A DNA stretch of 64,000 bases from Pseudonocardia sp. (lineage in GTDB: Bacteria; Actinomycetota; Actinomycetes; Mycobacteriales; Pseudonocardiaceae). The translations under genes were made by a program, and so were the position numbers. How positions within the stretch are numbered: the stretch's first letter is position 1; each line of letters opens with the position of its first letter. Of the stretch, positions 43,578 to 59,037 are shown in pieces. The notes under the pieces were generated by a model. That model was given only the letters and a program-made list of their open reading frames with translations. It made no database searches and was not told where the DNA came from. The stretch is taken from contig JAFASX010000144.1 of the NCBI GenBank assembly GCA_019244295.1, positions 1 to 64,000 on the forward strand. The letters run 5' to 3'.

Positions 43578-46500
43578 CTAACCAGTAGCGGTTTCCAGGG
43601 TGCGGGCGATGCCGCGCCGTACGGCATCGACCAGGTAAGGCCGCAGCCGGCTAGCCGGCACGATCTCGTGCACCGAACCCATCCGTTGCGCGCGTTCGAT
43701 GCTGTGCCGATTGTCGAACTCATCGGCGACCTCACCCAGCTTTTCCGAACGTACCAAGGCGCGGACACCGGCCAGTTCGGCGCGCAGCCGGGCGACGTCG
43801 CTCTCATCGGCGTTTTCCACCGCCTCGGCTAGCCGCGCTTCCAGGCTGGCGACCCGATGGTCGGCGGCGGTGCGTTTGTTGACCTCACCGGCGAACACCA
43901 CAGCCGCGGCGGGCGCCCCGCCGATCACCGAAGCGTACGAACCCTCAACGGCGGCGACCTCCATGTTGTCGTTGAGCGTCGCGGAGAACACTACGAACGC
44001 ACCGCCGTGGTAACGCGAAACCACGCAGAACACAATCGGGCCATCAAAATTGACGACGGCGCGTCCGATCTCGGCGCCGTACTCGAGCTGCAGCTCCCGC
44101 ATGGACTCTGGTGAGCCGTCGAAGCCCGAAAGGTTCGCCAGTACCACCAGCGGACGGTTGCCGCTGGCCGCGTTGATAGCTCGCGCGGTCTTCTTGGACG
44201 ACCGGGGGAACAGCGTGCCTGCGGTCCATTGCGACGGTCCGTCCACCGGCGAGCGCCCTCGCCGGGGCAGCGGACGGGATTCGATACCGAGCAGCGTGAT
44301 CGGCTGCCCACCCAGGTGCGCGTCCAGCACGACAACCGACTCGGCGTCATGCATGTCGGCCCAGCGCTCCAAAGGAGGGTGGTCGGCGTCGGCCACCCCG
44401 CGCATCAGCGAGCGGATGTCGAACGGTTTCTTGCGCTCGGCATTCGTCGCCGCCTCAAAGATCTCACCGAGCCGAGTAAAGCCACCGTCTGATCCGCCGT
44501 GCGGGGTCTCGCGGATGTCCCGCTCCACCGGGTCAGTGGTTGGGGCCGGGCGGGGGAAACGCTCGCCCGCCGCCACGTAGGTATGTGCGTAGTGCGCGAG
44601 CAGAATGTCGACCGCCCCCGACAAGTCGGGCGCCCAGTACTGGGCTTGCCCGTTCGGGCCCATGATCCGGTCGTAACCCCCGATCCCGAAGTTGTCCTCG
44701 GCGGATACCCCACCGGAGTAGTCCAAGCTCTGCTTGCCGGTCAGCACCATCGCCGAGTCCGGGGTCATGATCAAAATTCCTTTGGTATGCATGAGCATCG
44801 TGGCCTCGGCGTTCCAATACGGCTGCGCGCCGACGTTGATCCCGGCCACCACGATATTGACCTCGCCGCCTTCCTGAGTGAACTCGATCAGTCCGCGCAA
44901 CACCCGAGAAATCCAGTCCATGTTCTCCACCCCGGAGTCCATGGCGATCTTCGCGCCGGCGGACACCGCGAACCACTCCACCGGCGCCGACATCCGTCGA
45001 GCCAGCTCAAGCGCGGCGAGCACCCGGCGGCACTCGGGCTCGGCCAGCGCACCGAGCGCTTTGGTCGGATCGCCGAGCAGCACGACCCGGGTCATGCCTT
45101 CGGGGTAACGCTCGGTCTTGGTGGTGACCACACCGAGTACCAGGTTGGCGGTGTTGCCTCCCGGCGCCCGTTCCACTGCCACTGGTCGGCCACGCTCGTC
45201 GAGGTCGTACTCGGTGAATGTGCCCAGGTCTCCGAAGGCGTCCGGGTGGCGGGTGAGCAGCGGGATCAGTTCGTAGGGGTACACCGCGCCCCGTCGGCGT
45301 GCCCGAATCACCTTCTGCCCGTAGGCGTCGAGCTCACGCAGTGGCTCAGTCGGCGGCTCCGTGATGCGCAGGGTCAGGCCAGCCCCCGGCGGCCGGGACA
45401 TCCGCAGCATCAGTTCACGGGGTTCGCCCTGCTGGGTGACCGTCCGGAACTGCACCATCACTTGCTCCAGCCCCAGCCCGTCGGCCCGAGGTGCCAGCAC
45501 CCTGACCACGGCGTCCAGATCATTGAGCGGGATGTCCACCACCGGCCATACGTAAAGCAGCACCCGGTTCCAGGCCAGCTTGGCGGTGGCGGGATCGGCC
45601 GAACGAGCCGCGCGGATGCTGTTGAGACAGGCATCGAGTACATGTTCAAGCTCAGGCAGGCCGCTGACCAGGCCCCGGTCGTCGCGCAGCGTGGTGAGGT
45701 CACGGACGTCGGCCAGCGCGACCAGTCGCTGGTCTTCGGGGACCTCCCGGCCCTGCGCGCGGAATAGGTGCACGTCGGTGGCCGAGGGCAGGCGGGTGAG
45801 CTGAAACCCGGACAGCCGCCACAAGCCCAGCCGTTCGGCCACCATCGGGTGCAGTCCACGCAGGGTGCGGTCTTCGCTGGGCCGACCGTCCGGACCGGGC
45901 CGGAAGGTGAACCACGTCGTGGCACTGGCAACGTCATCACCGTCGCGGCGGACCGCTACCGCCACCCGACCAACCGATGCGGGAATCATGCCCAGCTTGG
46001 CTTTGATCCGCGCGGCGCGCGCGTTCGGCTCGACCCCCGACGAATCGTCTGACGTGACGTAAAGGTCGATCAGCACCGTGCGGTCAGGCGGCAGCGCATT
46101 GACCATCTGGTGCAGATCGGTGGAGACGGCGCTCGGCGCGTCCGCGGCTAGGTCGTCGACGCCGGCTTGCCCGCTGGCCACGGTGGCCAGCACGGTGTAG
46201 GCGTTGCCTTGGTGGCGGTACTCGGCCACTAGCAGTGGACGCCCATCGTGCGACACCACCTCGACGTTCTCTACCGGTCGAATCCGGTAAAACCGGCGTG
46301 TCATGATCGTGAGCATCGAGGCGTGGTGCCGTACGGCGAACACCTCGAGGATCGGTTCCCCCGAGGCCACGATCTCGTCGATCTGCGCCGCCCGCTCGAT
46401 CGGGTCGGTTGATAGGCGGTCGAGGCTGTTCTTGACCTGGCGTTGGACCGAGGCTCGGCGAGCGGCGATCAGTGGGGCGTCGAAGCAGTGGTACCGGACC

Positions 46501-49223
46501 TGACGGGCTAGGTCACCGATCGAGGGGTAGCGCAGCTGGGTAGCGGTGACTACCTGGTCGAGGACGTGCCGGTACTCATCCCGGGCATCCGGGGAGACGC
46601 TCAGTACGGACTCAGGATGACGCAGCCGCCACCGCAGCAGCTCGGAGAGCGTGGAAACGTGTGAACCAGCGCGGCGGTGCGCTAGGAACATCCGGTAGAG
46701 AGCTGGACCTAGTTCTGGCGTGTCCGCGAGGTCGTGCACGCCGTAATGGGCCAGTGCCCGGCGCAGCTTGATTCGGAAAGACTCTGGGAGGCTTTCGGCG
46801 TCGGCGTCCCGGGAGCGCAGGTAGGCGTATAGGTACTCCTGTGGGTTGCGGGCCGCTTCGGCGTCCACCGCTGATGCGTCGGTGAGCAAGTCGTCCGAGC
46901 TGTCCGGCAGCCGCCGGTTGCGCGAAAGAGCGCACAGGTCGGCGAAGATACCCAGCACCGATGCCTCGCCGGCCAGTAGCCGAACGTCATCCCGAGGCAG
47001 CCGCACCCGAGCGGCCGCCAGCCCGGCCAACAACGGCCGAGCTTCTCGTTCGTCGATATCGAAGCCAAGCACCAGCGAGCGCAGCGCGTTCAGTCCGTCT
47101 TCGGCGGCTGACGCGGGATCGGCGCTCGCCGTGGTGTGCGCCAGCTCCGCCAACCCGACGCGGTCGCCTGTTGTGTTGGTGTCCGCGCCAGCTTCAGGCG
47201 TGGGCTCCAGCCGCACCAGCTTCGTACCGGCCTCGACCTGGGTATTCGTGGCCACCAGGATTTCGGCTACCCGGCCGCTGACCGGTGCCCGCAACACGGT
47301 CTCCAGCTTCATCGACTCGACGATCGCCACCACGTCACCTTCGGCCAGATCATCACCCGCGCTGACCGGAATCGACACGACCATGGCTGGCGCCGGAGCA
47401 CGGACTAGCCCAGCTTCACCACCGGAAATCCGGTGCACCGCGCCATCAACCTCAACCAGGTAATCGGAGCCCTGGGCAACCGAGAGCACATCGAATCGTC
47501 GCCCACCGATGGTGAGCCGACGCTCAAAACGACCCGCGCGTTCGACGTCGACGTCCACCGCATGGTCATCGAGCTCGATTCGGTATCGGCTCGCCCGTGA
47601 CCTCGCCACCCGCAACCGATAAGGCCGGCCGCCGGCTCGCACGTCGACCTGGTACCAGGTCTCGTGGCCGACCTCAGGACGCCCGCGCTCGGCCGAAGCG
47701 AACAGCCGGTCACGCTGCCGGCGCACATGCGCGTCGTGCGCCTCCACTCCAGTCGCGAGCAGCGCGACGTCCAGGCGCCGCGGCGGCGTGTACCCGGCGG
47801 CCAACATGGTGTCCAGCCAGGTGGTATCCAGCTCACCGGAACGCATTTCGGGGCGGTCCAGCAGCTCAAGCAGAAACGCTTTGTTCGTGGTGCCGCCATT
47901 GATTACCACTGAGGTCTGGCGCAGCGCGCGACGCAAGCGAGCCCGCGCCTCGTCTCGGTTTCGGCCCCACGCGATCACTTTGGCGATCATGGAGTCGTAC
48001 TGCGGTGGGATGACGTCCCCAACGACCACCCCGGTGTCGACCCGGATGCCCGGACCGGTCGGCAACATGAGATGTTCGATCACACCGGGTGCCGGAGCGA
48101 AGTCGCGATCTGGATCCTCGGCGGTCAGCCGAGCTTCGATCGCATGCCCTCGGGACGGGGGGCTGGCGCTTTCAGCGCCGGTGCGGCTGGCGCCGAGCTT
48201 GTCGCCGAACTCGTCGAGCAGGCCGCCAGCGGCTACGTGCAACTGCAGCTTGACGATGTCGATGCCCGTGGTCACTTCGGTAACCGGATGCTCCACCTGC
48301 AGTCGAGTGTTGACCTCAAGGAACGTCAACAGCCGCTCCTTGGGCTCGTAGAGGAACTCCACCGTGCCGGCGTTGACATAACCAACGGCCCGCGCGAGGG
48401 CGGCCGCCGAGGTACGCAATACCTGCGCCTGGTCGGCGTCCAGCGCGATGGACGCCGACTCCTCGATAATCTTCTGGTTGCGCCGCTGAACGCTGCAGTC
48501 CCGAATACCCAATGTCCATATACAGCCGGCCGCGTCCGCGACGACCTGGACCTCGACATGGCGGCCACCCCGGATGGCGCGCTCCAGGAACACGGTGGCA
48601 TCGCCAGCGGTACGGGAAGCCTCCGACGAGGCCCGCTCGAACGCCTCCGTAAGCTCGTTCGGGCTGTTCACCAGTCGGATGCCGCGCCCACCGCCGCCCG
48701 CGGTTGCCTTCACCATCAGTGGGTACCCGATGGTTTCGGCGTGTCGGCGGGCCTCGGCCAGGTCCGCGACCGGGCCGCCGCTCCACGCGGCCAGCGGCAC
48801 ACCGAGCTCCTCGGCCAGCCGCTTGGACTCGATCTTATCGCCGAGCTGCCGCATCACCTGCGCCGACGGACCGATGAAGGTGATCCCCAGCCGCTCGCAC
48901 AGCTCGGCGAACTCCGCCTTCTCCGAGACGAATCCCCAGCCAGGCCACACCGCGTCCGCCCTGGCCAGCCGCAGCGCGCGCGCCAGCTCGGCGTAGTCCA
49001 GGTAGGGGTTGGGGCCAAACGCGGCTGTGTCCTTCAGGTCCGGGCCGACAAGCACCGCCTCGTCAGCCTCCCGCACAAACATCGACCGGCGGTCGACGGC
49101 GGTGTGCACGGCGATGACGGTGAGCTCATGACGGCCTTCGGCATTCCACTCGCGCACCGCGTTAATCAGCCGCATCGCGGGCTCGCCTCGGTTGACGATA
49201 GCGACTCGCCGAAAGGAGGCCAT
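43578..49223 (-). CDS. Single-chain multidomain acyl-CoA (acetyl-CoA) carboxylase: BC-BCCP-central-CT
   Basis: N-terminal biotin carboxylase (KATAGGGGRGIRLV, EVNTRLQVEHPVTE), biotinyl motif VESMKLETVLRAPVSG, then ~650-aa central region, then carboxyltransferase (YPYELIPLL, GARIA-like SAGAKIAMDSG, PSGPxxTVGP-like GPSQWTAGTLF). ~1881 aa. Confidence 0.93.
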   Translation of the reverse strand: MASFRRVAIVNRGEPAMRLINAVREWNAEGRHELTVIAVHTAVDRRSMFVREADEAVLVGPDLKDTAAFGPNPYLDYAELARALRLARADAVWPGWGFVSEKAEFAELCERLGITFIGPSAQVMRQLGDKIESKRLAEELGVPLAAWSGGPVADLAEARRHAETIGYPLMVKATAGGGGRGIRLVNSPNELTEAFERASSEASRTAGDATVFLERAIRGGRHVEVQVVADAAGCIWTLGIRDCSVQRRNQKIIEESASIALDADQAQVLRTSAAALARAVGYVNAGTVEFLYEPKERLLTFLEVNTRLQVEHPVTEVTTGIDIVKLQLHVAAGGLLDEFGDKLGASRTGAESASPPSRGHAIEARLTAEDPDRDFAPAPGVIEHLMLPTGPGIRVDTGVVVGDVIPPQYDSMIAKVIAWGRNRDEARARLRRALRQTSVVINGGTTNKAFLLELLDRPEMRSGELDTTWLDTMLAAGYTPPRRLDVALLATGVEAHDAHVRRQRDRLFASAERGRPEVGHETWYQVDVRAGGRPYRLRVARSRASRYRIELDDHAVDVDVERAGRFERRLTIGGRRFDVLSVAQGSDYLVEVDGAVHRISGGEAGLVRAPAPAMVVSIPVSAGDDLAEGDVVAIVESMKLETVLRAPVSGRVAEILVATNTQVEAGTKLVRLEPTPEAGADTNTTGDRVGLAELAHTTASADPASAAEDGLNALRSLVLGFDIDEREARPLLAGLAAARVRLPRDDVRLLAGEASVLGIFADLCALSRNRRLPDSSDDLLTDASAVDAEAARNPQEYLYAYLRSRDADAESLPESFRIKLRRALAHYGVHDLADTPELGPALYRMFLAHRRAGSHVSTLSELLRWRLRHPESVLSVSPDARDEYRHVLDQVVTATQLRYPSIGDLARQVRYHCFDAPLIAARRASVQRQVKNSLDRLSTDPIERAAQIDEIVASGEPILEVFAVRHHASMLTIMTRRFYRIRPVENVEVVSHDGRPLLVAEYRHQGNAYTVLATVASGQAGVDDLAADAPSAVSTDLHQMVNALPPDRTVLIDLYVTSDDSSGVEPNARAARIKAKLGMIPASVGRVAVAVRRDGDDVASATTWFTFRPGPDGRPSEDRTLRGLHPMVAERLGLWRLSGFQLTRLPSATDVHLFRAQGREVPEDQRLVALADVRDLTTLRDDRGLVSGLPELEHVLDACLNSIRAARSADPATAKLAWNRVLLYVWPVVDIPLNDLDAVVRVLAPRADGLGLEQVMVQFRTVTQQGEPRELMLRMSRPPGAGLTLRITEPPTEPLRELDAYGQKVIRARRRGAVYPYELIPLLTRHPDAFGDLGTFTEYDLDERGRPVAVERAPGGNTANLVLGVVTTKTERYPEGMTRVVLLGDPTKALGALAEPECRRVLAALELARRMSAPVEWFAVSAGAKIAMDSGVENMDWISRVLRGLIEFTQEGGEVNIVVAGINVGAQPYWNAEATMLMHTKGILIMTPDSAMVLTGKQSLDYSGGVSAEDNFGIGGYDRIMGPNGQAQYWAPDLSGAVDILLAHYAHTYVAAGERFPRPAPTTDPVERDIRETPHGGSDGGFTRLGEIFEAATNAERKKPFDIRSLMRGVADADHPPLERWADMHDAESVVVLDAHLGGQPITLLGIESRPLPRRGRSPVDGPSQWTAGTLFPRSSKKTARAINAASGNRPLVVLANLSGFDGSPESMRELQLEYGAEIGRAVVNFDGPIVFCVVSRYHGGAFVVFSATLNDNMEVAAVEGSYASVIGGAPAAAVVFAGEVNKRTAADHRVASLEARLAEAVENADESDVARLRAELAGVRALVRSEKLGEVADEFDNRHSIERAQRMGSVHEIVPASRLRPYLVDAVRRGIARTLETATG

Positions 49224-49660
49224 GGTCCGTCCGTTCATCCGGTGCTCATCCCCGCTTGTTCCGATGATCGCTGTGGTCGCTCACAACGCAGAAGTATCTG
49301 CGTCGGCGATTGGCGCTATCGTTGCTCCCCTTGATCGTGCTACGGATCCGTGGTCAGCGGCACCCGATGACACCGTGACGTCGTAGAGCGGTCCAGGCCG
49401 CGACGATGTCTGTGTCGTTGAGCGCGGCGTCTGTGACACAACATCATAAAGCAGAGAGCTCGGGGCGGATGTTACCAAGATGAGGGCGGGACGATGGGCT
49501 GGGTTCGGCTGGTTCCCGGCTAGCCGTCAGCAGCACGAACAATCGCCACCCCAAGCAACCGCTGGGCGGCGAGCAAATGGGAAAGGCGATCAGTAGTGAA
49601 AAACATAGTGGCCACCCGAGCCGGCGGGCGGGGTGACCACGGTGTCATGCGGAGATGTTC

Positions 49661-50297: not shown

Positions 50298-51170
50298 GTG
50301 ACCCGACCAAGCTCGGTCGCCGAGCTCATCGAGCTCCTGCGGGGCAGCGGGTATCTGGCCGACCGCGGCCTGGCCACCGCCATACATGTCGCTCTCGCGC
50401 TCGACCGGCCGGTGCTGCTGGAGGGCGAGGTCGGGGTCGGCAAAACCGAGTTGGCGAAGGTACTGGCCACCGTGCTGGGCCGCGTTCTGATCCGCTTGCA
50501 GTGTTATGAGGGCATCGACGCCAATCAGGCCATGTACGAGTGGGATTACGCCAGGCAACTGCTGCACATTCGGGCGCTCTCCGAGCGCTCGGTGACTGAT
50601 GACGCAGCGGTGGACCAGGTGTTCGGCCCTCGGTTTCTGCTGGAACGCCCGCTGCTGCGCGCGGTGCAGGCAGGTGAACAGGCCGTACTGCTGATCGACG
50701 AGATCGACCGGGCCGACGACGAGTTCGAGGCATTCCTGCTAGAGCTGCTTTCGGACTTCCAGGTCAGCATCCCCGAAATAGGCACAGTGGCCGCCGAGCG
50801 CCCGCCGCTGGTGCTGCTCACCTCCAACCGCACCCGGGAGCTACACGATGCGCTCAAGCGACGTTGCCTCTACCACTGGATCGGCTACCCCAGCTTCCAG
50901 CGCGAGCTGGAGATCGTCCGGGTACGCCGGCCAGAGGTGCCCGACGCGCTGGCTCGGTCAGTGGTCGCGGCGGTCACGCGACTGCGCGAGATGGAACTGG
51001 CCAAGCCGCCGGGGGTGGCCGAGACCATCGACTGGGCCAGCACGTGCGCCTTCCTCGGCATCGGGCAACTCGACGCCGAAACCGCCGAGCTCACCCTGGG
51101 TTCGGTGGTCAAGGACCACGACGACGAAGACCTGGTCCGCCCCCGCCTTGGCGACATCGTGGCGACGTGA
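50298..51170 (+). CDS. MoxR-family AAA+ ATPase (CoxD-like)
   Basis: GEVGVGKTELAKVLA Walker A, LLIDEIDRADDEFEAFLLELLSD Walker B, LTSNRTRELHDALKRRCLYHWIGYP; GTG start. Confidence 0.92.
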   Translation: MTRPSSVAELIELLRGSGYLADRGLATAIHVALALDRPVLLEGEVGVGKTELAKVLATVLGRVLIRLQCYEGIDANQAMYEWDYARQLLHIRALSERSVTDDAAVDQVFGPRFLLERPLLRAVQAGEQAVLLIDEIDRADDEFEAFLLELLSDFQVSIPEIGTVAAERPPLVLLTSNRTRELHDALKRRCLYHWIGYPSFQRELEIVRVRRPEVPDALARSVVAAVTRLREMELAKPPGVAETIDWASTCAFLGIGQLDAETAELTLGSVVKDHDDEDLVRPRLGDIVAT

Positions 51171-52297
51171 CCGCGGCCGGCTTTGGTTTAGCCGGGGTGC
51201 TGGTCCGGTTCGCGCGGGCACTTCGCGCCGAAGGTGTCGCGATCGGATCGGGCGATATGGTGACCTATTGCGCGGCGATGACATCGCTGGATCCGACCGA
51301 TCTGGAAGACCTGTACTGGGGCGGGCGAGTCTCGCTGGTGAGTAGGTGGGAGGACGTCGAGGTCTACGACCGAGTGTTCCAGGCGTTCTTCCTCGACGTG
51401 GCTAATCCGGTGGACGAGCTGGTGGCCTTGGTAGCCCGGCCGGAAGCCAACGCCGAGTCAACGCTGGTGGCGCCGGCTGTTGAGCCGGGCGAGCAGGAGC
51501 CCGACGAGCAAGCGAGGCTGGGATTGATGGCCTCCGACGTCGAGACGCTGACCTCGAAGTCGTTCGCGGAGTGCACCGAGGACGAACTGGCCGCACTGCG
51601 TCGGATCATCGCCCAGATTCAGCTGGCCCCGCCGATGCGCAGAACCCGGCGCACTCAATTGTCGCGTCGGGGCCGCCGACCCGACCTGCGGGCGTCCATC
51701 CGCCGTTCACTACGGGTGCACGGCGAGCTGGTCGACTTACGCTGGCGTCGCCGCCGCCGGCAGCCGCGGCCACTGGTGCTGATCCTGGACATCTCCGGCT
51801 CGATGGCTGAGTACTCTCGGGCGCTGCTGCAATTCGCGTACTCCACAAAGCGGGCCGGAGTCCCCCGGCTGCGGGTGGAAGTGTTCTGCTTCGGCACCCG
51901 GCTGACGTACCTCACTCCCTCGCTGCGTACCCGGGTTCCGGACGAGGCGCTGACTCGGGCCGCCGCGAGCGTGCTGGACTGGGACGGCGGTACCCGCATC
52001 GGGCGGTCATTGGACGAGTTCATCAGGCGTTGGGGACGGCGTGGCATGGCCCGGGGCGGCGTGGCCGTGATCTGTTCGGACGGTCTAGACCGGGGTGACC
52101 CCGAGTTGTTGTCCGATGCGATGGCGCGGTTGTCGAGGTTGTGTCACCGCATTGTCTGGCTGAACCCGCACGCGGCGGATGGTCCGCCCCGCACGGTCGG
52201 CATGATGGTCGCTAAGCCCCACATCGATCTGTTGTTGTCTGGCCACGACCTGGACAGCCTCGAGCGATTGGCGGCGATGCTGCCCACCCTGAGCTAA
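51167..52297 (+). CDS. VWA-domain protein, CoxE-like
   Basis: RRQPRPLVLILDISGSMAEYSRALLQFAY (MIDAS DxSxS), DWDGGTRIGRSL; GTG start overlapping coxD-like stop by 4 nt. Confidence 0.9.
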   Translation: MTAAGFGLAGVLVRFARALRAEGVAIGSGDMVTYCAAMTSLDPTDLEDLYWGGRVSLVSRWEDVEVYDRVFQAFFLDVANPVDELVALVARPEANAESTLVAPAVEPGEQEPDEQARLGLMASDVETLTSKSFAECTEDELAALRRIIAQIQLAPPMRRTRRTQLSRRGRRPDLRASIRRSLRVHGELVDLRWRRRRRQPRPLVLILDISGSMAEYSRALLQFAYSTKRAGVPRLRVEVFCFGTRLTYLTPSLRTRVPDEALTRAAASVLDWDGGTRIGRSLDEFIRRWGRRGMARGGVAVICSDGLDRGDPELLSDAMARLSRLCHRIVWLNPHAADGPPRTVGMMVAKPHIDLLLSGHDLDSLERLAAMLPTLS

Positions 52298-52307
52298 GGT
52301 TTTGTTT

Positions 52308-52745
52308 GTGCAGATCAGGCTGGGTTCATTGGCGGGGTATCCGTTCGAAGGCCCTCGCTTGCTCGGGGGTTGGACACCGCCGGCTACCCCGGGTGTCTAC
52401 GTCGTGCTGTACAAGCCCGACCCCGAACGCGAGCAGTACGCGGTGATCTACGTCGGCCACAGCGCGGACCTCTCAACCGAGAACTTTCCGTTCCGCCACG
52501 TCGCGGCACCCTGCTGGATACAGCGGGCCGGCTCCAAGTGGAAGCTGCACGTGGCCACGTTGGAGATCCCCGGCGGCGGGCCCGGGCACCGAGAGATGGT
52601 GGCAAACGAACTGATCTCGATATACCGGCCGCATTGCAACAATGAGCGATATGACAACACGTGGCGGGCCGAATGGATCGGCGAATATTCCGATGCCCCT
52701 ACCACCGCCCCGCTGCCCCAGCATCGGTCAGACAATTCTGGCTGA
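52308..52745 (+). CDS. GIY-YIG-like small protein
   Basis: TPGVYVVLYKPDPEREQYAVIYVGHSADLSTENFPFRH...ELISIYRPHCNNE; GVYVV...YVGHS resembles GIY...YIG. GTG start 10 nt after coxE-like stop. Confidence 0.5.
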   Translation: MQIRLGSLAGYPFEGPRLLGGWTPPATPGVYVVLYKPDPEREQYAVIYVGHSADLSTENFPFRHVAAPCWIQRAGSKWKLHVATLEIPGGGPGHREMVANELISIYRPHCNNERYDNTWRAEWIGEYSDAPTTAPLPQHRSDNSG

Positions 52746-52852: not shown

Positions 52853-53206
52853 TTAGTCTTCTGGAGTGAACCCGACGGCTTTATGCAGCCGCGAGCGTCG
52901 ACGGCCGGAAGCCGGCGTGGCGATCACCGAACGCTGTGGAGTAGGCGATGCTTTGGTGACGATTCGCTCGGCGAATCCGTACAGCAGCGGCAACGCACCG
53001 GCCACCGTGCCGCCGGTGTGGTTGATGTGCTCGATACCTGGGCCGATCAGGGCCGCGTCAGCGTTGATCCGCTGAATACTCTGTTCGGACGCCTCGAGAT
53101 TAGTAGCGATACCACCCAGCAGCGAACCGACCCAATACAGATAGAACGCCAGCCCGGCGATCAGCGCGACAATAACCAACACACTGAGTACGATCATCAG
53201 CGTCAT
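52853..53206 (-). CDS. Small single-TM protein (cox-locus array member 5)
   Basis: MTLMIVLSVLVIVALIAGLAFYLYWVGSLLGGIATNLEASEQSIQRINADAALIGPGIEHINHTGG; overlaps 53203 stop (ATGA). Confidence 0.7.
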   Translation of the reverse strand: MTLMIVLSVLVIVALIAGLAFYLYWVGSLLGGIATNLEASEQSIQRINADAALIGPGIEHINHTGGTVAGALPLLYGFAERIVTKASPTPQRSVIATPASGRRRSRLHKAVGFTPED

Positions 53207-53514
53207 GACGTCGCGCCTCCGTTGCTTGCGGCCGTGGCCGGGGTCGGGATGCTGGGCAGCACACGCCCGAGGAAAAGGTGGTGTTGCAGGCCTTCGGCCA
53301 GCACTGCGTCCACCGCGTCGGCGGTCTTCGGGATGAGTGTGGTCGCCGACGTGTTTGAAGTGATCGTTTCTAGAGTACGCCGAACCTCGCTGACTCGCTT
53401 GTCAATGATCTTCACTAGATAGATCAAAATGCTCAGCAACGCGGCAACCGCGAGCACCACAACGAATCCACCGATGATTGCTATCCACCAGGCGGTCAGC
53501 TCCTGATCAGACAT
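53203..53514 (-). CDS. Small single-TM protein (array member 4)
   Basis: MSDQELTAWWIAIIGGFVVVLAVAALLSILIYLVKIIDKRVSEVRRTLETITSNTSATTLIPKTADAVDAVL. Confidence 0.7.
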   Translation of the reverse strand: MSDQELTAWWIAIIGGFVVVLAVAALLSILIYLVKIIDKRVSEVRRTLETITSNTSATTLIPKTADAVDAVLAEGLQHHLFLGRVLPSIPTPATAASNGGATS

Positions 53515-53515
53515 C

Positions 53516-53758
53516 TCAGCCTCCCAACCGCTCGCGGCCTCGGCGCAGCCCGGCCGTGATCACCTCGGCATGGTTGATAGTAGTAGTCAGATCGGTCAAT
53601 GGACGAGTGTTCCGTTCGGCCTTCCCCAACGTCGCGTTGATCGCCGCCGCTTGTTTACCGATCTTGTGCGCTAACAGCAGAATCGGCACGACCAACGCGA
53701 CGACAACGAGCACCACGATGACGCCGATCGTGAAGCCGATGTACCAACCGGTCATCAC
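53516..53758 (-). CDS. Small single-TM protein (array member 3)
   Basis: MMTGWYIGFTIGVIVVLVVVALVVPILLLAHKIGKQAAAINATLGKAERNTRPLTDLTTTINHAEVITAGLRRGRERLGG. Confidence 0.7.
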   Translation of the reverse strand: MMTGWYIGFTIGVIVVLVVVALVVPILLLAHKIGKQAAAINATLGKAERNTRPLTDLTTTINHAEVITAGLRRGRERLGG

Positions 53759-53982
53759 ACACCCTCACAGAAGTCCCGGACCGGCTTGAGGTTAGTGTTC
53801 ACCGAGGCCACCACGGTGGGCACGGTCGCCGTGGAGGCGGCGATCACTTCCACCCCGCCGCTAAGCGTGGCCAAGGTTTTCGAAACGTGCCACAGGTGCA
53901 GAATCACCCGCAGCAGCCCCACCGCAGTGATGCCGATGATCAGCGCCGCGATGATCAGCGTCGCCCAGGCCGCAGCTGGCAT
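53755..53982 (-). CDS. Small single-TM protein (array member 2)
   Basis: MPAAAWATLIIAALIIGITAVGLLRVILHLWHVSKTLATLSGGVEVIAASTATVPTVVASVNTNLKPVRDFCEGV; overlaps next gene by 4 nt. Confidence 0.7.
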   Translation of the reverse strand: MPAAAWATLIIAALIIGITAVGLLRVILHLWHVSKTLATLSGGVEVIAASTATVPTVVASVNTNLKPVRDFCEGV

Positions 53983-54017
53983 GGCTGGCTCCTTTCGGGG
54001 AGAAACTTGATGATCGG

Positions 54018-54269
54018 CTACAGCAGCTTGGCCACGCTGCCGGCGTACCGAGTCGCCCCAGCCGCGACCTGCGCGACGGTGGAGTCCGTTTCAGCCAGCA
54101 GTCCAGGCACTGGATCGAGTTGGCCGATCAAAGTGACACCGCCTGCGAGGATGTCATCGACGGCCCAGCGGATCCGCTCGATGGCCGCGAGCACTCGGTT
54201 GAGCAACGCAACCACGACCGGGAACACCACGAACAGCAAAACCGCGTTGCCGATCCACCACAGCACCAT
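54018..54269 (-). CDS. Small single-TM protein (array member 1)
   Basis: MVLWWIGNAVLLFVVFPVVVALLNRVLAAIERIRWAVDDILAGGVTLIGQLDPVPGLLAETDSTVAQVAAGATRYAGSVAKLL. Confidence 0.7.
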   Translation of the reverse strand: MVLWWIGNAVLLFVVFPVVVALLNRVLAAIERIRWAVDDILAGGVTLIGQLDPVPGLLAETDSTVAQVAAGATRYAGSVAKLL

Positions 54270-54307: not shown

Positions 54308-54907
54308 TCACCCTGCACCCCCAACCGGCCGGGTGCTCGGGCCGAAGAACCGCCGCAGTACTCGTTTCAGCGCCATCACCGCAGCCGCGATACCAATGCG
54401 TAGCCCGCTGGCCGGCGCGGCCGCGCGGGTGGCAACGGCGACACCACCGCCGACGCGCTGCGCCTCGATGTTGTGCGCAATACAGTCGCTGAAACTGCGC
54501 AGCAGCACGCTGGTGATATCAGCGATCATGCCCCGACCGTATTGGGCGACGGCTCCGGTGATCTGCAGCTCCTGAGATACCTTCATCGCCGTCGCGTTTG
54601 GGCCGGCCGCGGTGAGCCGCGAGGAGACCGTCATGTCGGCGGAGCCCTTGCCGCGAGTCTCCGCGCCGCTGGCATGCAGCACAATCCGCCGCGCGGCTTC
54701 GTCGGCCTCGACGATCCGCGCTGTACCGGTGAAACGCAGGGACACCGGCCCGAGCTTGACCAGCACCTTCCCCGAATAAGAGCCATCCGCGTTCTCGTCG
54801 GTGAGCTCGGCGCCAGGCAGGCACGGCGCTAGCCTGGGCAGGTCCTGCAGGTAGTCCCAGACTTTGTCCAGCGGCGCGGCTACCCGCAGCTCGTTCTCGA
54901 TCAGCAT
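54308..54907 (-). CDS. coxG: CO dehydrogenase subunit G-like protein (SRPBCC, CoxG)
   Basis: MLIENELRVAAPLDKVWDYLQDLPRLAPCLPGAELTDENADGSYSGKVLVKLGPVSLRFTGTARIVEAD...; hydrophobic C-terminal segment. Confidence 0.92.
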   Translation of the reverse strand: MLIENELRVAAPLDKVWDYLQDLPRLAPCLPGAELTDENADGSYSGKVLVKLGPVSLRFTGTARIVEADEAARRIVLHASGAETRGKGSADMTVSSRLTAAGPNATAMKVSQELQITGAVAQYGRGMIADITSVLLRSFSDCIAHNIEAQRVGGGVAVATRAAAPASGLRIGIAAAVMALKRVLRRFFGPSTRPVGGAG

Positions 54908-54922: not shown

Positions 54923-57307
54923 CTAGTCCTGACGCACCGGCGGGACGCCGGAGACGTCCCGCCCGGTTTGGATCGCTTGCCACACCCGGTCTGGCAGCAC
55001 CGGCATGTCGATGTTGCGTACACCGGTGTCCTCCAGCGCATTCATCACCGCGTTGACGAACGCGGCCGGGCCGCCCACCGCCGCGCACTCACCAACGCCC
55101 TTGGCGCCGATCGGATGATGCGGACAGGGCGTCACTACCTCGTGCAACTCGAACCCGGGGGTTTCCCACGCGGTCGGCAACAGGTAGTCAATATAGTTCG
55201 CGCCGATCATGTTGCCGTCGGCGTCGTAGGTCATGAACTGCATGTTTGCCATGGCGTAGGCCTCGGCAAGCCCGCCCATGATCTGGCCCTCGACGATCAT
55301 CGGGTTGATCCGAACCCCGCAGTCGTCCACCGCGACCACACGCAGCACGTCCCACACGCCTGTCTCCGGGTCAACCTCGACCGTCGCGATGTAGCAGGCG
55401 AACGGCCAGGTCAGGTTGGGTGGGTCGTAATAGGCGTTGTTTTCGAGACCAGGCTCCATGCCGTCGGGCATGTTCGTATAGGCGGCCATGGCGCATTCCT
55501 GGATGGTGACGCCACGTCTCGCCGCGCCACGCACGTAGAACCGGCCGAGCTCCCACTCGATGTCCTCTTCGGAGACTTCGAGCAGATGCGCGGCGAGCTT
55601 GCGTGCCTTTGCCCTGACCTTGCGCGCGACCATCGACACAGCGGCACCCGCGACCGGGGTGCTACGGGAAGCGTAGGTGCCCATTCCGAACGGGGCGGTG
55701 TCGGTGTCGCCCTCTTCGACTATTACATCGTCAGCCGGGATACCTAGCTCGTGGCTGACGATCTGGGCCCAGGTGGTCTCGTGCCCTTGGCCCTGGGTCT
55801 TCGCCCCCGTGCGCAAGATAGCTTTTCCAGTTGGGTGCACCCGAAGCTCGGCGGAGTCGAACATCTTAATGCCCAAGATGTCGTACTCGCGGCTGTTACC
55901 GGCGCCCAACGGCTCGGTCATGGTGGAGATACCGATGCCGAGGCGCCGTCCCCGGGAGCGGGCCTGCGCTTGCTCTCTCTTGAAGTCCTCGTAGCCGATC
56001 GCGTCCAAGCCCAGCTGCAGGCACTTGTGGTACTGGCCGGAGTCGACCAGGAAACCGAACGGCGTGCGCGCTGGGAAGTCGTCGGCGCGGCGCAGGTTGA
56101 TCCGGCGGAACTGGGCCTGGTCCATGCCTAAATCGGCGGCGGCCGCCTGTATCATCCTTTCCTGGAAGAACATCGCTTCGGTGACCCGGAACGAGCACCG
56201 GTAGGCCACTCCGCCGGGCGCCTTGTTGGTGTACGCGCCTCGGGCGGTGATGTGCCCGACCGGGATGTCGTAGCAGGCGAACGCCGAGTGCACCAGCCCG
56301 ATCTTGAATTTGCTGGGCTGCGCGTCGGAGAAGAACGCGCCTTGGTCGGTGTCGGCATGGAAACGGACGGCAAGGATCTTGCCGTCCTTGCGCAGCGCCA
56401 GCTCACTGTCCAGGTACATGTCCCGGCCGAAGCCAGTGGAGATCAGGTTGCCGAAGTTGTCCTCGATCCACTTCACCGGCTTGCCGGTGAGGATCGAGCC
56501 CAGGATCGAACATACGTAACCGGGGTAGACCGGAACCTTATTGCCGAACCCGCCGCCGAGGTCCGGCGACACGATCCGGATCATGTGCTCGGGCAACTCC
56601 GCCACCAGGGCCACCGCCGCCCGGATGATGTGCGGGGCCTGGGTGGTCATGTAAACGGTGAGCTTGCCGGTGGCGGCGTTGTAGTCGGCGACCGAGCCGC
56701 AGCACTCGATTGGCGAAGGGTGGCTGCGCGGGTAGTGCAGCTTCAGCCGGGAGATGTGGTCAGCTTGGGCGAATGCCCGGTCGGTGCCCTGCTTGTCACC
56801 GACCTCCCAGCGATAGCAGACGTTGTCGGTCTGCCCCTCCTTGTCATCGCGGATCAGCGGCGCGTCCGGCGCGAGTGACTGGATCGGGTTGACGATCACG
56901 GGCAGCGGCTCGTACTCCACCACGATCGCCTCGCAGGCGTCCTTGGCGATATACGGGTCGTCGGCGACGACACAGGCCACCTCTTGGCCCTGGAACCGCA
57001 CCTTGTCGGTAGCCAGCACGGCCTGCGTGTCGTAGGACAGCGTCGGCATCCAGGCCAGGTTGCGCTGGGCGGCCATCTCACCGGTCAGCACCAGCCGCAC
57101 ACCTGGAATGGCCCATGCGGCCGAAGTGTCGATTGATATGATCCGGGCATGCGCCAGCGGACTGCGCAGGATCTCCATATGCAGCATGCCGGGCAGCTTG
57201 AGGTCATCGATGTAGTTGCCTCGACCCCGGATGAAACGGGCATCCTCCACCCGTTGCCGGCTGGATCCCAGCCCGCCGATCTTGACTTCGTCGAGTGCCT
57301 GCGACAT
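54923..57307 (-). CDS. coxL: Aerobic CO dehydrogenase large subunit, form I
   Basis: 794 aa molybdopterin-binding subunit; form I active-site motif AYRCSFR (56186..56206); GSSRQRVEDARFIRGRGNYIDDLKLPGMLH N-terminus. Confidence 0.95.
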   Translation of the reverse strand: MSQALDEVKIGGLGSSRQRVEDARFIRGRGNYIDDLKLPGMLHMEILRSPLAHARIISIDTSAAWAIPGVRLVLTGEMAAQRNLAWMPTLSYDTQAVLATDKVRFQGQEVACVVADDPYIAKDACEAIVVEYEPLPVIVNPIQSLAPDAPLIRDDKEGQTDNVCYRWEVGDKQGTDRAFAQADHISRLKLHYPRSHPSPIECCGSVADYNAATGKLTVYMTTQAPHIIRAAVALVAELPEHMIRIVSPDLGGGFGNKVPVYPGYVCSILGSILTGKPVKWIEDNFGNLISTGFGRDMYLDSELALRKDGKILAVRFHADTDQGAFFSDAQPSKFKIGLVHSAFACYDIPVGHITARGAYTNKAPGGVAYRCSFRVTEAMFFQERMIQAAAADLGMDQAQFRRINLRRADDFPARTPFGFLVDSGQYHKCLQLGLDAIGYEDFKREQAQARSRGRRLGIGISTMTEPLGAGNSREYDILGIKMFDSAELRVHPTGKAILRTGAKTQGQGHETTWAQIVSHELGIPADDVIVEEGDTDTAPFGMGTYASRSTPVAGAAVSMVARKVRAKARKLAAHLLEVSEEDIEWELGRFYVRGAARRGVTIQECAMAAYTNMPDGMEPGLENNAYYDPPNLTWPFACYIATVEVDPETGVWDVLRVVAVDDCGVRINPMIVEGQIMGGLAEAYAMANMQFMTYDADGNMIGANYIDYLLPTAWETPGFELHEVVTPCPHHPIGAKGVGECAAVGGPAAFVNAVMNALEDTGVRNIDMPVLPDRVWQAIQTGRDVSGVPPVRQD

Positions 57308-57840
57308 CAGGTTCTCCCGGAGACCGTAGTGCCTTGACCATTTGTTTCCGCGACGTGCCCATGTTGCTTAGCCGCCGCCCAGAGCACCGCTTTGACGATG
57401 TTCTGATAGCCGGTGCACCGGCAGAGGTTGCCGGACAACCCCCATCGCACGTCCTCTTCGGAGGGATTGGGGTTGTTGGTGATCAAGGCCTTCGCGGTGA
57501 GCATCATGCCGGGGGTGCAGAATCCGCACTGCAAACCATGCTCAATGGTAAAGCCCTCCTGCACCGGGTCGAGCTCACTGAGGCTGCCGAGGCCTTCGAC
57601 GGTGGTGATCTCGTGGCCATCCGCCTGCACAGCCAGCATGGTGCACGATTTCACCGGGGTGCCGTCGTAGAGCACTGTGCAAGCACCGCAGTTGGTCGTG
57701 TCACAGCCGATGTGGGTGCCGGTCAGACGCAAGCCCTCCCGCAGTAAGTGCACCAGCAGCAGCCGAGGTTCGACCTCGACCGCATGTGGCTCGCCGTTAA
57801 CTGTGACGGTGATCCGGTGTTCGTCCGCAGCGTCAGTCAT
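57307..57840 (-). CDS. coxS: Aerobic CO dehydrogenase small [2Fe-2S] subunit
   Basis: [20 protein letters not shown] and [13 protein letters not shown]...[13 protein letters not shown] iron-sulfur motifs. Confidence 0.95.
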
Positions 57841-57901: not shown

Positions 57902-58771
57902 TCAAGCGGGCACGGCCAATCGATAGCTCGACAGTGCTCGCCGGACGAACGTCTCCACGACATGGCGCTTGTACTCCGCGCTCCCTCGGTGGTCGCTGCG
58001 TGGGCGAGCGGCGCCGGCGGCTAGCCCGGCCGCGCGCGCGATCACGTCCGGCTCCAGGGCCTGGCCAATCAATGCTTGTTCTGCTTCGATCGCCTGAATC
58101 GTGTTCGGGCCGACGCCGGTCAGCGCAATGCCGGCACGGCTGATCTGAAGTCCGGACGTCTCGATTGCCACGGCAACCCCGACTGTTGCGAAATCACCCA
58201 CTCGGCGTTCCAGCTTCAGGTAGCTGCCGTATGGTGTTCCCTTCGCGGCGGGAACGCTGGCCTCGACGGCAATCTCTCCAGCGGCCAGGGAGTTCTGAAA
58301 CGGCCCGACAACGAAATCGGCGACGGAGATAGTCCGCCGCCCGTCCTTGCCAGCGACGACGACCTGACCGTTCAGCGCGAGCAGCACCGAGGCCCAGTCA
58401 CCCTGCGGGTCGGCGTGGCACAACGAACCAACCACCGTGCCCCGGTTGCGCACGATCGGATCCGCCACCTGCGGGGCCGCGGCGGCCATCGTCGGGTAAC
58501 GGCCAGGCAACAGCGCTGAACGTTCCAGGTCGACGTGCCGGCACAGCGCCCCGATTCGCAGGGAACCGTCACTCTCCGCCCGGTGGTAGGCAAGATCGGA
58601 CAAACCGTTGATGTCCACTAGGACGGCTGGCGAAGCGAAGCGGAGCTTGAGCATCGGCACCAGGCTCTGCCCACCAGCCAGCACCTTCGCGTCATCGCCG
58701 TACTCGGCCATGACCGCGAAGGCTTCATCCAGGGATTTCGGTGCGACGTAGCGTAGCCGAGGGGGGTACAT
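57902..58771 (-). CDS. coxM: Aerobic CO dehydrogenase medium FAD subunit
   Basis: MYPPRLRYVAPKSLDEAFAVMAEYGDDAKVLAGGQSLVPMLKLRFASPAVLVDIN; VGSLCHADPQGDW (FAD-binding). Start at 58771. Confidence 0.94.
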   Translation of the reverse strand: MYPPRLRYVAPKSLDEAFAVMAEYGDDAKVLAGGQSLVPMLKLRFASPAVLVDINGLSDLAYHRAESDGSLRIGALCRHVDLERSALLPGRYPTMAAAAPQVADPIVRNRGTVVGSLCHADPQGDWASVLLALNGQVVVAGKDGRRTISVADFVVGPFQNSLAAGEIAVEASVPAAKGTPYGSYLKLERRVGDFATVGVAVAIETSGLQISRAGIALTGVGPNTIQAIEAEQALIGQALEPDVIARAAGLAAGAARPRSDHRGSAEYKRHVVETFVRRALSSYRLAVPA

Positions 58772-59037
58772 CAGACGTTGCCCATGCGGTGAGCGCCTCG
58801 AGGCTGGCCCGAGCCGGGCTCCACGATCGCCACTGGAAGTATGTCCTCCTCGGGGTCCGGCCGGCGCTGCTGGTGCGGCGGCCACGGCCCCGGCACCGGC
58901 TGACCGGCCACCTTCATGAAGTCGATGAGCGCGGGGAAAGCCCACACCGTCGGGCTCTTCCCGGTTTTCGGCGCGTTCTCAATGAGCTCATACATGCGTG
59001 GGTTCCGGCCGCCGTGTCCATCAGACTCGATCGCCAT
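58771..59037 (-). CDS. 88-aa uncharacterised protein overlapping coxM start
   Basis: MAIESDGHGGRNPRMYELIENAPKTGKSPTVWAFPALIDFMKVAGQPVPGPWPPHQQRRPDPEEDILPVAIVEPGSGQPRGAHRMGNV*; TGA overlaps coxM ATG (position 58771 shared). Confidence 0.6.
   Translation of the reverse strand: MAIESDGHGGRNPRMYELIENAPKTGKSPTVWAFPALIDFMKVAGQPVPGPWPPHQQRRPDPEEDILPVAIVEPGSGQPRGAHRMGNV

Follow-up and report, generated by a model that had tools for sequence, protein, structure and literature searches.

Five small genes directly 3' of coxM-coxS-coxL-coxG in a Pseudonocardia sp. encode members of five homologous families of single-transmembrane (TM) proteins, and the near-constant neighbourhood of these families with CO dehydrogenase (CODH) or hydrogenase genes suggests a shared membrane mount that joins trace-gas enzymes to the respiratory chain. 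The genes lie on the minus strand of the window (the whole 64,000-nucleotide stretch of DNA that was analysed), are transcribed in the order E-D-C-B-A, and are listed here with the cox genes around them.

coxD-like gene, 50298..51170, plus strand: MoxR AAA ATPase with an AAA_5 match; conserved convergent neighbour
coxE-like gene, 51167..52297, plus strand: VWA protein (VWA_CoxE, PF05762); conserved convergent position
orf145, 52308..52745, plus strand: convergent to the array and conserved beside it; without a Pfam match
Array gene A, 52853..53206, minus strand: 117 aa; C-terminal basic RRSRL-xxx-VG tail specific to arrays linked to CoxL I-B
Array gene B, 53203..53514, minus strand: 103 aa; LAEGLQHHLFLGRV segment as in cox-linked copies
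Array gene C, 53516..53758, minus strand: 80 aa from GTG, 79 aa from the ATG at 53755; paralogous to B and E
Array gene D, 53755..53982, minus strand: 75 aa; paralogous to A
Array gene E, 54018..54269, minus strand: 83 aa; TM helix with the N-terminus predicted outside, then a predicted amphipathic cytoplasmic helix
coxG, 54308..54907, minus strand: 199 aa; PF06240; matches PDB 8UDS (E 2e-28); C-terminal amphipathic basic helix, no TM anchor
coxL, 54923..57307, minus strand: form I CODH large subunit, subtype I-B; TIGR02416, 1098 bits; active-site loop AYRCSFR
coxS, 57307..57840, minus strand: assigned by homology to iron-sulfur small subunits and by synteny
coxM, 57902..58771, minus strand: assigned by homology to FAD-binding subunits; start picked by the gene caller
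orf88, 58771..59037, minus strand: small conserved protein encoded 5' of coxM at 60/60 loci of this cox subtype; without a Pfam match

An earlier sequence-only reading had described five ORFs of 83, 75, 80, 103 and 117 aa on one strand, each with one N-terminal TM segment and all placed immediately behind coxM-S-L-G. All of this was borne out: the ORFs are present, the best 19-residue Kyte-Doolittle means are 2.5 to 3.5, and coxG is separated from E by 38 nt with no intervening gene. E and D are 35 nt apart, while D, C, B and A overlap or touch. Of the two ATGA overlaps that had been proposed, the one at the B/A junction (53203/53206) is genuine, whereas the D/C junction (53755/53758) reads either as GTGA with a GTG start for C, or as a 1-nt TGATG overlap with an ATG start; homologues favour the ATG (MTGW...). 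A promoter-like site was looked for between coxG and A and none was found, and the single terminator-like match, which is inside A, is no better than expected from shuffled sequence.

Measured against the orthologues of a near relative (L057), pN/pS is 0.19-0.33 for the five array genes, 0.39 for coxG and 0.16 for coxL. Given these values and the colinearity of the genes in dozens of genomes, the array ORFs are not chance reading frames and, to judge from the substitution pattern, E to A are under purifying selection. Profile comparison yields two groups, one of D and A and the other of B, C and E. It is likely that the five families arose by duplication, although this is not proven, since TM proteins inflate profile scores. 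The families fall in two linked blocks, E-D and C-B-A, and no natural fusion of two different array families was found.

The window CoxL scores 1098 bits against a TIGR02416 cut-off of 991 and has both the AYRCSFR loop and a GAKGxGE segment; by sequence it is the large subunit of a form I aerobic CODH, from which CO oxidation activity is inferred. Other features of the window were recorded in passing. In I-B cox clusters orf88 and orf145 match the array in conservation; both are uncharacterised and lack Pfam matches. A protein of ~95 aa encoded between orf145 and coxE in other genomes is absent from the window. An ORF of 1886 aa (43578-49238) reads as a fusion of biotin carboxylase, biotin carrier and carboxyltransferase, and positions 1-358 and 859-1122 hold two very similar N-terminal Hsp70-like pieces, the second apparently truncated.

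The linkage of the array to this CODH subtype is very regular. Among 151 relatives, all 22 CoxL I-B loci (from 21 genomes) have coxG and the array on the 3' side, subtype I-B scoring 1076-1124 bits to TIGR02416, with one partial CoxL in G062 added. The array is carried by 0 of 24 genomes in which only the other form I subtype exceeds the cut-off (I-A, 1203-1471 bits). In named genomes the order E-D-C-B-A is seen at 66/66 I-B loci with enough sequence, a further 14 loci having been left out as they meet contig ends, and orf88-coxM-coxS is found 5' of coxL at 60/60. These loci come from Pseudonocardia, Actinophytocola, Nocardioides, Kineosporia, Frankia, Trebonia, Actinomadura, Acidimicrobiia and Ilumatobacteraceae. 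Homologues lying mainly away from cox genes would, by the criterion of the sequence-only reading, have refuted a membrane platform for CODH, and at both sets of loci the close homologues adjoin coxL-coxG. In a class-wide sample of 19 array-bearing genomes, 17 arrays are cox-linked, one is hydrogenase-linked and one is on a 3-kb contig; this sample carries the tie to cox into other families, many with genomes of 1.5-2.5 Mb.

CoxL I-B forms a supported clade (18/18, 0.98) that retains the form I loop AYRCSFR. The array is also encountered with a third CoxL type, where it precedes coxMSL in two loci (L159 and L160); in L160 it lies between a coxG encoding a tailless protein and coxMSL. Separately, several loci (L053, L055, L057, L063 and others) have two form I CoxMSL clusters of different subtypes in divergent adjacency, with CoxL proteins 54-57% identical, and this arrangement is seen in many Pseudonocardia genomes.

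What the five proteins look like can be predicted in some detail. Lysine and arginine are more numerous after the TM segment than before it in 746 of 759 array proteins, and the reverse is never seen, so the tails should face the cytoplasm, where CODH works. The tails had been described as short helical or linker segments; helical they appear to be, but not short, since AlphaFold2 models A as one helix over residues 2-86 and E as two helices over residues 2-51 and 54-82. In each of the five families the periodicity of tail hydrophobicity is strongest at 102-106 degrees per residue, against 102.9 for a heptad, with B showing the weakest periodicity (its peak is reached by 22 of 500 shuffles). 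When compared with the PDB, the profiles of families A, D and E look like coiled coils, either designed or natural. These profile matches, like the single-helix models (pTM 0.43-0.47), are weak evidence for a bundle, and the searches with E, A, C and D returned coiled-coil look-alikes or nothing, with no homologue.

The position of these genes within redox-enzyme operons, together with a conserved HH pair in B of cox arrays, might point to small membrane subunits with a redox or metal-carrying function that hand electrons on, or to a small molybdate or copper transporter. This is very improbable: no array family has a Cys or His conserved throughout, which haem, Fe-S or Cu ligation would require, and proteins with one TM helix each do not provide a transporter fold.

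CoxG is reported to be the menaquinone-binding membrane protein of CODH (PMC13240472), and its homologues to anchor enzymes to membranes (PMC11962113). The canonical form I protein (PDB 8UDS; PMC13240472, PMC11962113) resembles the proposed array in associating with the membrane and delivering quinone for CODH, although the array proteins are not CoxG homologues. The two kinds of CoxG differ at the C-terminus. In I-A-only genomes, a TM-grade tail is usual (25/30, most of the others having a weaker or displaced segment), whereas none of 116 array-adjacent CoxG proteins reaches the hydropathy cut-off (maximum 1.54), their C-terminus being an amphipathic basic helix that mostly ends in RRFF. The I-A comparison set includes paralogues not beside coxL; of the nine that are beside coxL, six exceed the cut-off and three reach 1.5-1.7. 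By this comparison of sequences, CoxG has lost its own membrane anchor where the array is present, and the simplest explanation is that the array supplies both anchor and docking stalk. Two clusters (L096:2557-3231 and L097) also hold a second coxG with a C-terminal TM anchor beside the array-linked anchorless one.

It is therefore probable, though by no means settled, that E-D-C-B-A constitutes a five-subunit membrane mount for a soluble trace-gas enzyme, in this case the form I-B CODH, with a stalk that docks CoxMSL and CoxG. Each subunit would span the membrane once, with its N-terminus outside and a long amphipathic helix reaching into the cytoplasm, and the five helices may pack side by side into a coiled-coil bundle that rises from the bilayer as a stalk. 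Such a stalk would take over the anchoring done in canonical CoxG by its own C-terminal TM helix. CoxMSL and CoxG would dock on it, the contact probably being made by ends that differ between subunits, for instance the RRSRL tail of A; a basic C-terminal tail of this type is conserved in A of I-B clusters and absent from hydrogenase-linked arrays. The stalk might then position CoxG for the exchange of menaquinone between the bilayer and CODH. This reading is based on gene linkage, homology, predicted topology, predicted helices, heptad periodicity and the observed loss of the CoxG anchor; the formation of a hetero-oligomer or bundle, the docking and any quinone route are inferred, and there are no expression, localisation, interaction or biochemical data. 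The fact that canonical I-A CODH works without an array counts against it.

The proposal of a small-subunit membrane platform for CODH had already been made from the sequence alone, and the cox linkage, the tail topology and the lost CoxG anchor support it. Its restriction to CODH does not hold, since the family also accompanies [NiFe]-hydrogenases, and the idea that the proteins are cox subunits only was rejected in view of those arrays and of a full array away from cox in the window's own genome (G000:C54). Homologous arrays flank, or lie between, the genes of group-1h-like [NiFe]-hydrogenases. In four genomes (G004, G018, G066, G090) a hydrogenase cluster is flanked by E-D at one end and C-B-A at the other. 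The nearest PDB entry to its large subunit is 5AA5, the hydrogenase HofG, and the cluster encodes a HycI-type protease and NifU-like, TPR, BirA-like, DUF1059 and small TM proteins. This gene set agrees with the description of group 1m hydrogenases in PMC9561532. In five loci (L162, L163, L165, L252, L254) the order C-B-A-E-D is found between hhyS and hhyL, and in f67 genomes the array has this place between hydrogenase small and large subunit genes. The profiles that recover these genes were built from window-type, 1m-linked and stand-alone arrays, and in the first three loci the genes match the profiles of the five families, in that order, with E values of 2e-13 to 3e-18. The group 1l label of such loci depends on published synteny and on the best PDB match, 5AA5, and not on HydDB phylogeny. 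No [NiFe]-hydrogenase of the HylTM-linked type was found in the window's own genome (G000).

The genes that accompany the arrays raise the possibility of an assembly or maturation scaffold, absent from the working enzyme, that brings CoxD and CoxE, or else Hyp and NifU-like factors, together at the membrane during the building of CODH or hydrogenase. The convergent neighbours are coxE and coxD in nearly all I-B loci, and arrays in hydrogenase clusters adjoin hypC/hypD, a HycI-type protease gene and a NifU-like gene. However, the MoCu-pterin and NiFe cofactor pathways are unrelated, which makes a shared need for the membrane and quinone the more natural link; a scaffold would not explain why array presence tracks the loss of the CoxG anchor; and canonical CODH matures without an array. 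Such a scaffold is thus unlikely. The membrane mount fits what can be inferred of the partners: CODH and [NiFe]-hydrogenase have two unrelated catalytic folds and share mainly a cytoplasmic, quinone-coupled lifestyle, so that related arrays might serve group 1l and 1m-type hydrogenases in the same way.

Beyond the close relatives, a phylum-wide sample contains 36 genomes, the window's own excluded, that have an E-family match at E <= 1e-6. In 33 of them the array is linked to CODH or [NiFe]-hydrogenase genes: 29 have a structural gene (coxL, hhyL or hhyS) on the examined stretch, and 4 more have only coxG, coxDE or hydrogenase accessory genes. The other 3 have neither, two of them on contigs under 7 kb. 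Such genes would rarely be expected in a random 20-kb stretch, but no formal background was computed. Since the profiles used to detect the array were themselves trained on this material, diverged copies may be missed, and some contigs in the genome samples are short.

The linkage with trace-gas enzymes is strong, not absolute, as stand-alone arrays and an array-free 1m-type cluster in G123 demonstrate. Stand-alone arrays were found in G000:C54, G065:C23, G103, G893 and G883:C58. The first of these (L012/L059:4849-6380) is a second complete five-family array in the window's genome, in the order C-B-A-E-D and away from cox, and three longer proteins with TM segments and helical repeats are encoded near it (L059:1400-3634). 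A similar trio accompanies a stand-alone array in G112:C51 (L049), whose neighbours read by eye as RuBisCO large and small subunits, phosphoribulokinases and an aldolase. No recognisable array genes adjoin the 1m-type hydrogenase clusters L131 (G123:C1) and L130 (G112:C16). A mobile-element origin was also considered: a transposase-like gene, identified by eye, is near a partial array of E-D only (G000:C80, L011:15-624), none is present at the cox locus, and a plasmid collection contains no E homologue.

The stand-alone arrays could be taken to mean that these are general envelope-stress or membrane-microdomain proteins, of the DUF948 or PspB kind, whose link to gas enzymes is incidental. Searches of Pfam and NCBIfam with the five proteins gave sub-threshold matches only, with B and C weakly resembling DUF948 and C resembling PspB. 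DUF948 (PF06103) shares the plan of one N-terminal TM segment ahead of a helical tail (E 0.0015 for C, 0.0043 for B), but the scores of 17.7-19.1 bits are far below the cut-off of 37.2, so the proteins are not members, and the PspB match is likewise far below its curated cut-off. An incidental link is also hardly credible given linkage in 18/19 (class) and 33/36 (phylum) genomes of unbiased samples and a tree that groups arrays by partner.

In that tree, a concatenation of 105 arrays, all 90 I-B-linked arrays are in one clade (0.93), while the two arrays of the third CoxL type and the three of group 1l type each form a clade of their own (1.0 in both cases); the 1m-type arrays are near the group 1l-type ones and poorly resolved. 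Arrays thus follow their partner enzyme, and on this phylogeny the linkage to CODH appears to have arisen more than once. It is tempting to go further and to regard five-subunit TM stalks as a portable unit for electron delivery that unrelated soluble oxidases recruited on more than one occasion (at least twice by MoCu CODH, and by group 1l and 1m [NiFe]-hydrogenases), and in which a quinone-accessible docking tower replaces enzyme-specific anchors; for this wider proposal the case is evenly balanced.

The hydrogenase literature provides two comparisons. HylTM1-5 are five short single-TM proteins of group 1l [NiFe]-hydrogenases; the available text of PMC9561532, citing an earlier study, assigns them no function. 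The sequence-only reading knew of no assigned function for the array, which agrees with that text, but it missed the published name. Like the window array, HylTM1-5 are encoded together with a trace-gas enzyme; the families are homologous one to one, and hhyS-CBAED-hhyL is the layout given there. The window array differs in following coxG of a CODH rather than lying between hydrogenase large and small subunit genes, in its order (E-D-C-B-A versus C-B-A-E-D), and in the extra basic C-terminal tail of A. Group 1m clusters are described in the same text as encoding two single-TM proteins of 82-92 aa, to which it likewise assigns no function. The E-D pair in L044/L045, beside DUF1059, TPR, BirA-like, NifU-like and protease genes, fits this published pair, but these loci also carry C-B-A across the hydrogenase genes, giving five proteins and not two, and the partner is a hydrogenase where the window has CODH.

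A third comparison is HucM, an elongated helical scaffold that tethers the hydrogenase Huc to the membrane and lets menaquinone in (PMC10792529). A similar job is proposed here for the array, namely helical support of a soluble cytoplasmic enzyme with access to menaquinone. However, HucM is one protein that forms a homotetramer and associates peripherally with the membrane, while the array consists of five different single-TM proteins, and PDB searches with the E, A, C and D profiles returned no hydrogenase scaffold chain. The HucM precedent invites the idea that the stalk is more than an anchor and serves as a hydrophobic conduit for menaquinone to the enzyme, as a multi-subunit counterpart of HucM. 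CODH and hydrogenase must both reach menaquinone, the tails are long and heptad-patterned, and no CoxG was seen near hydrogenase-linked arrays, so the array might itself provide quinone access there. Against this, cox clusters still have CoxG, a known quinone carrier that makes a conduit unnecessary, and monomer models cannot show pore formation; a conduit is considered quite unlikely.

No publication linking the array families to CODH was found in a search from which the original group 1l study and most other subscription papers were missing. As far as could be checked, four points are new: the families are linked to CODH; the CODH, 1l and 1m sets are homologous one to one; the 1m set has five members; and the loss of the CoxG anchor goes together with the array.

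How soluble CODH and high-affinity hydrogenases hand electrons over to the quinone pool is an active question, and the answers so far are HucM for Huc of M. smegmatis and CoxG for CODH. A five-protein module shared by many Actinomycetota, which apparently replaces a lost CoxG anchor, suggests a second, modular solution in many trace-gas oxidisers. The unexplained HylTM proteins thereby gain a comparative frame. If the stalks are indeed portable, one Actinomycetota toolkit would couple the oxidation of both atmospheric CO and H2 to menaquinone.
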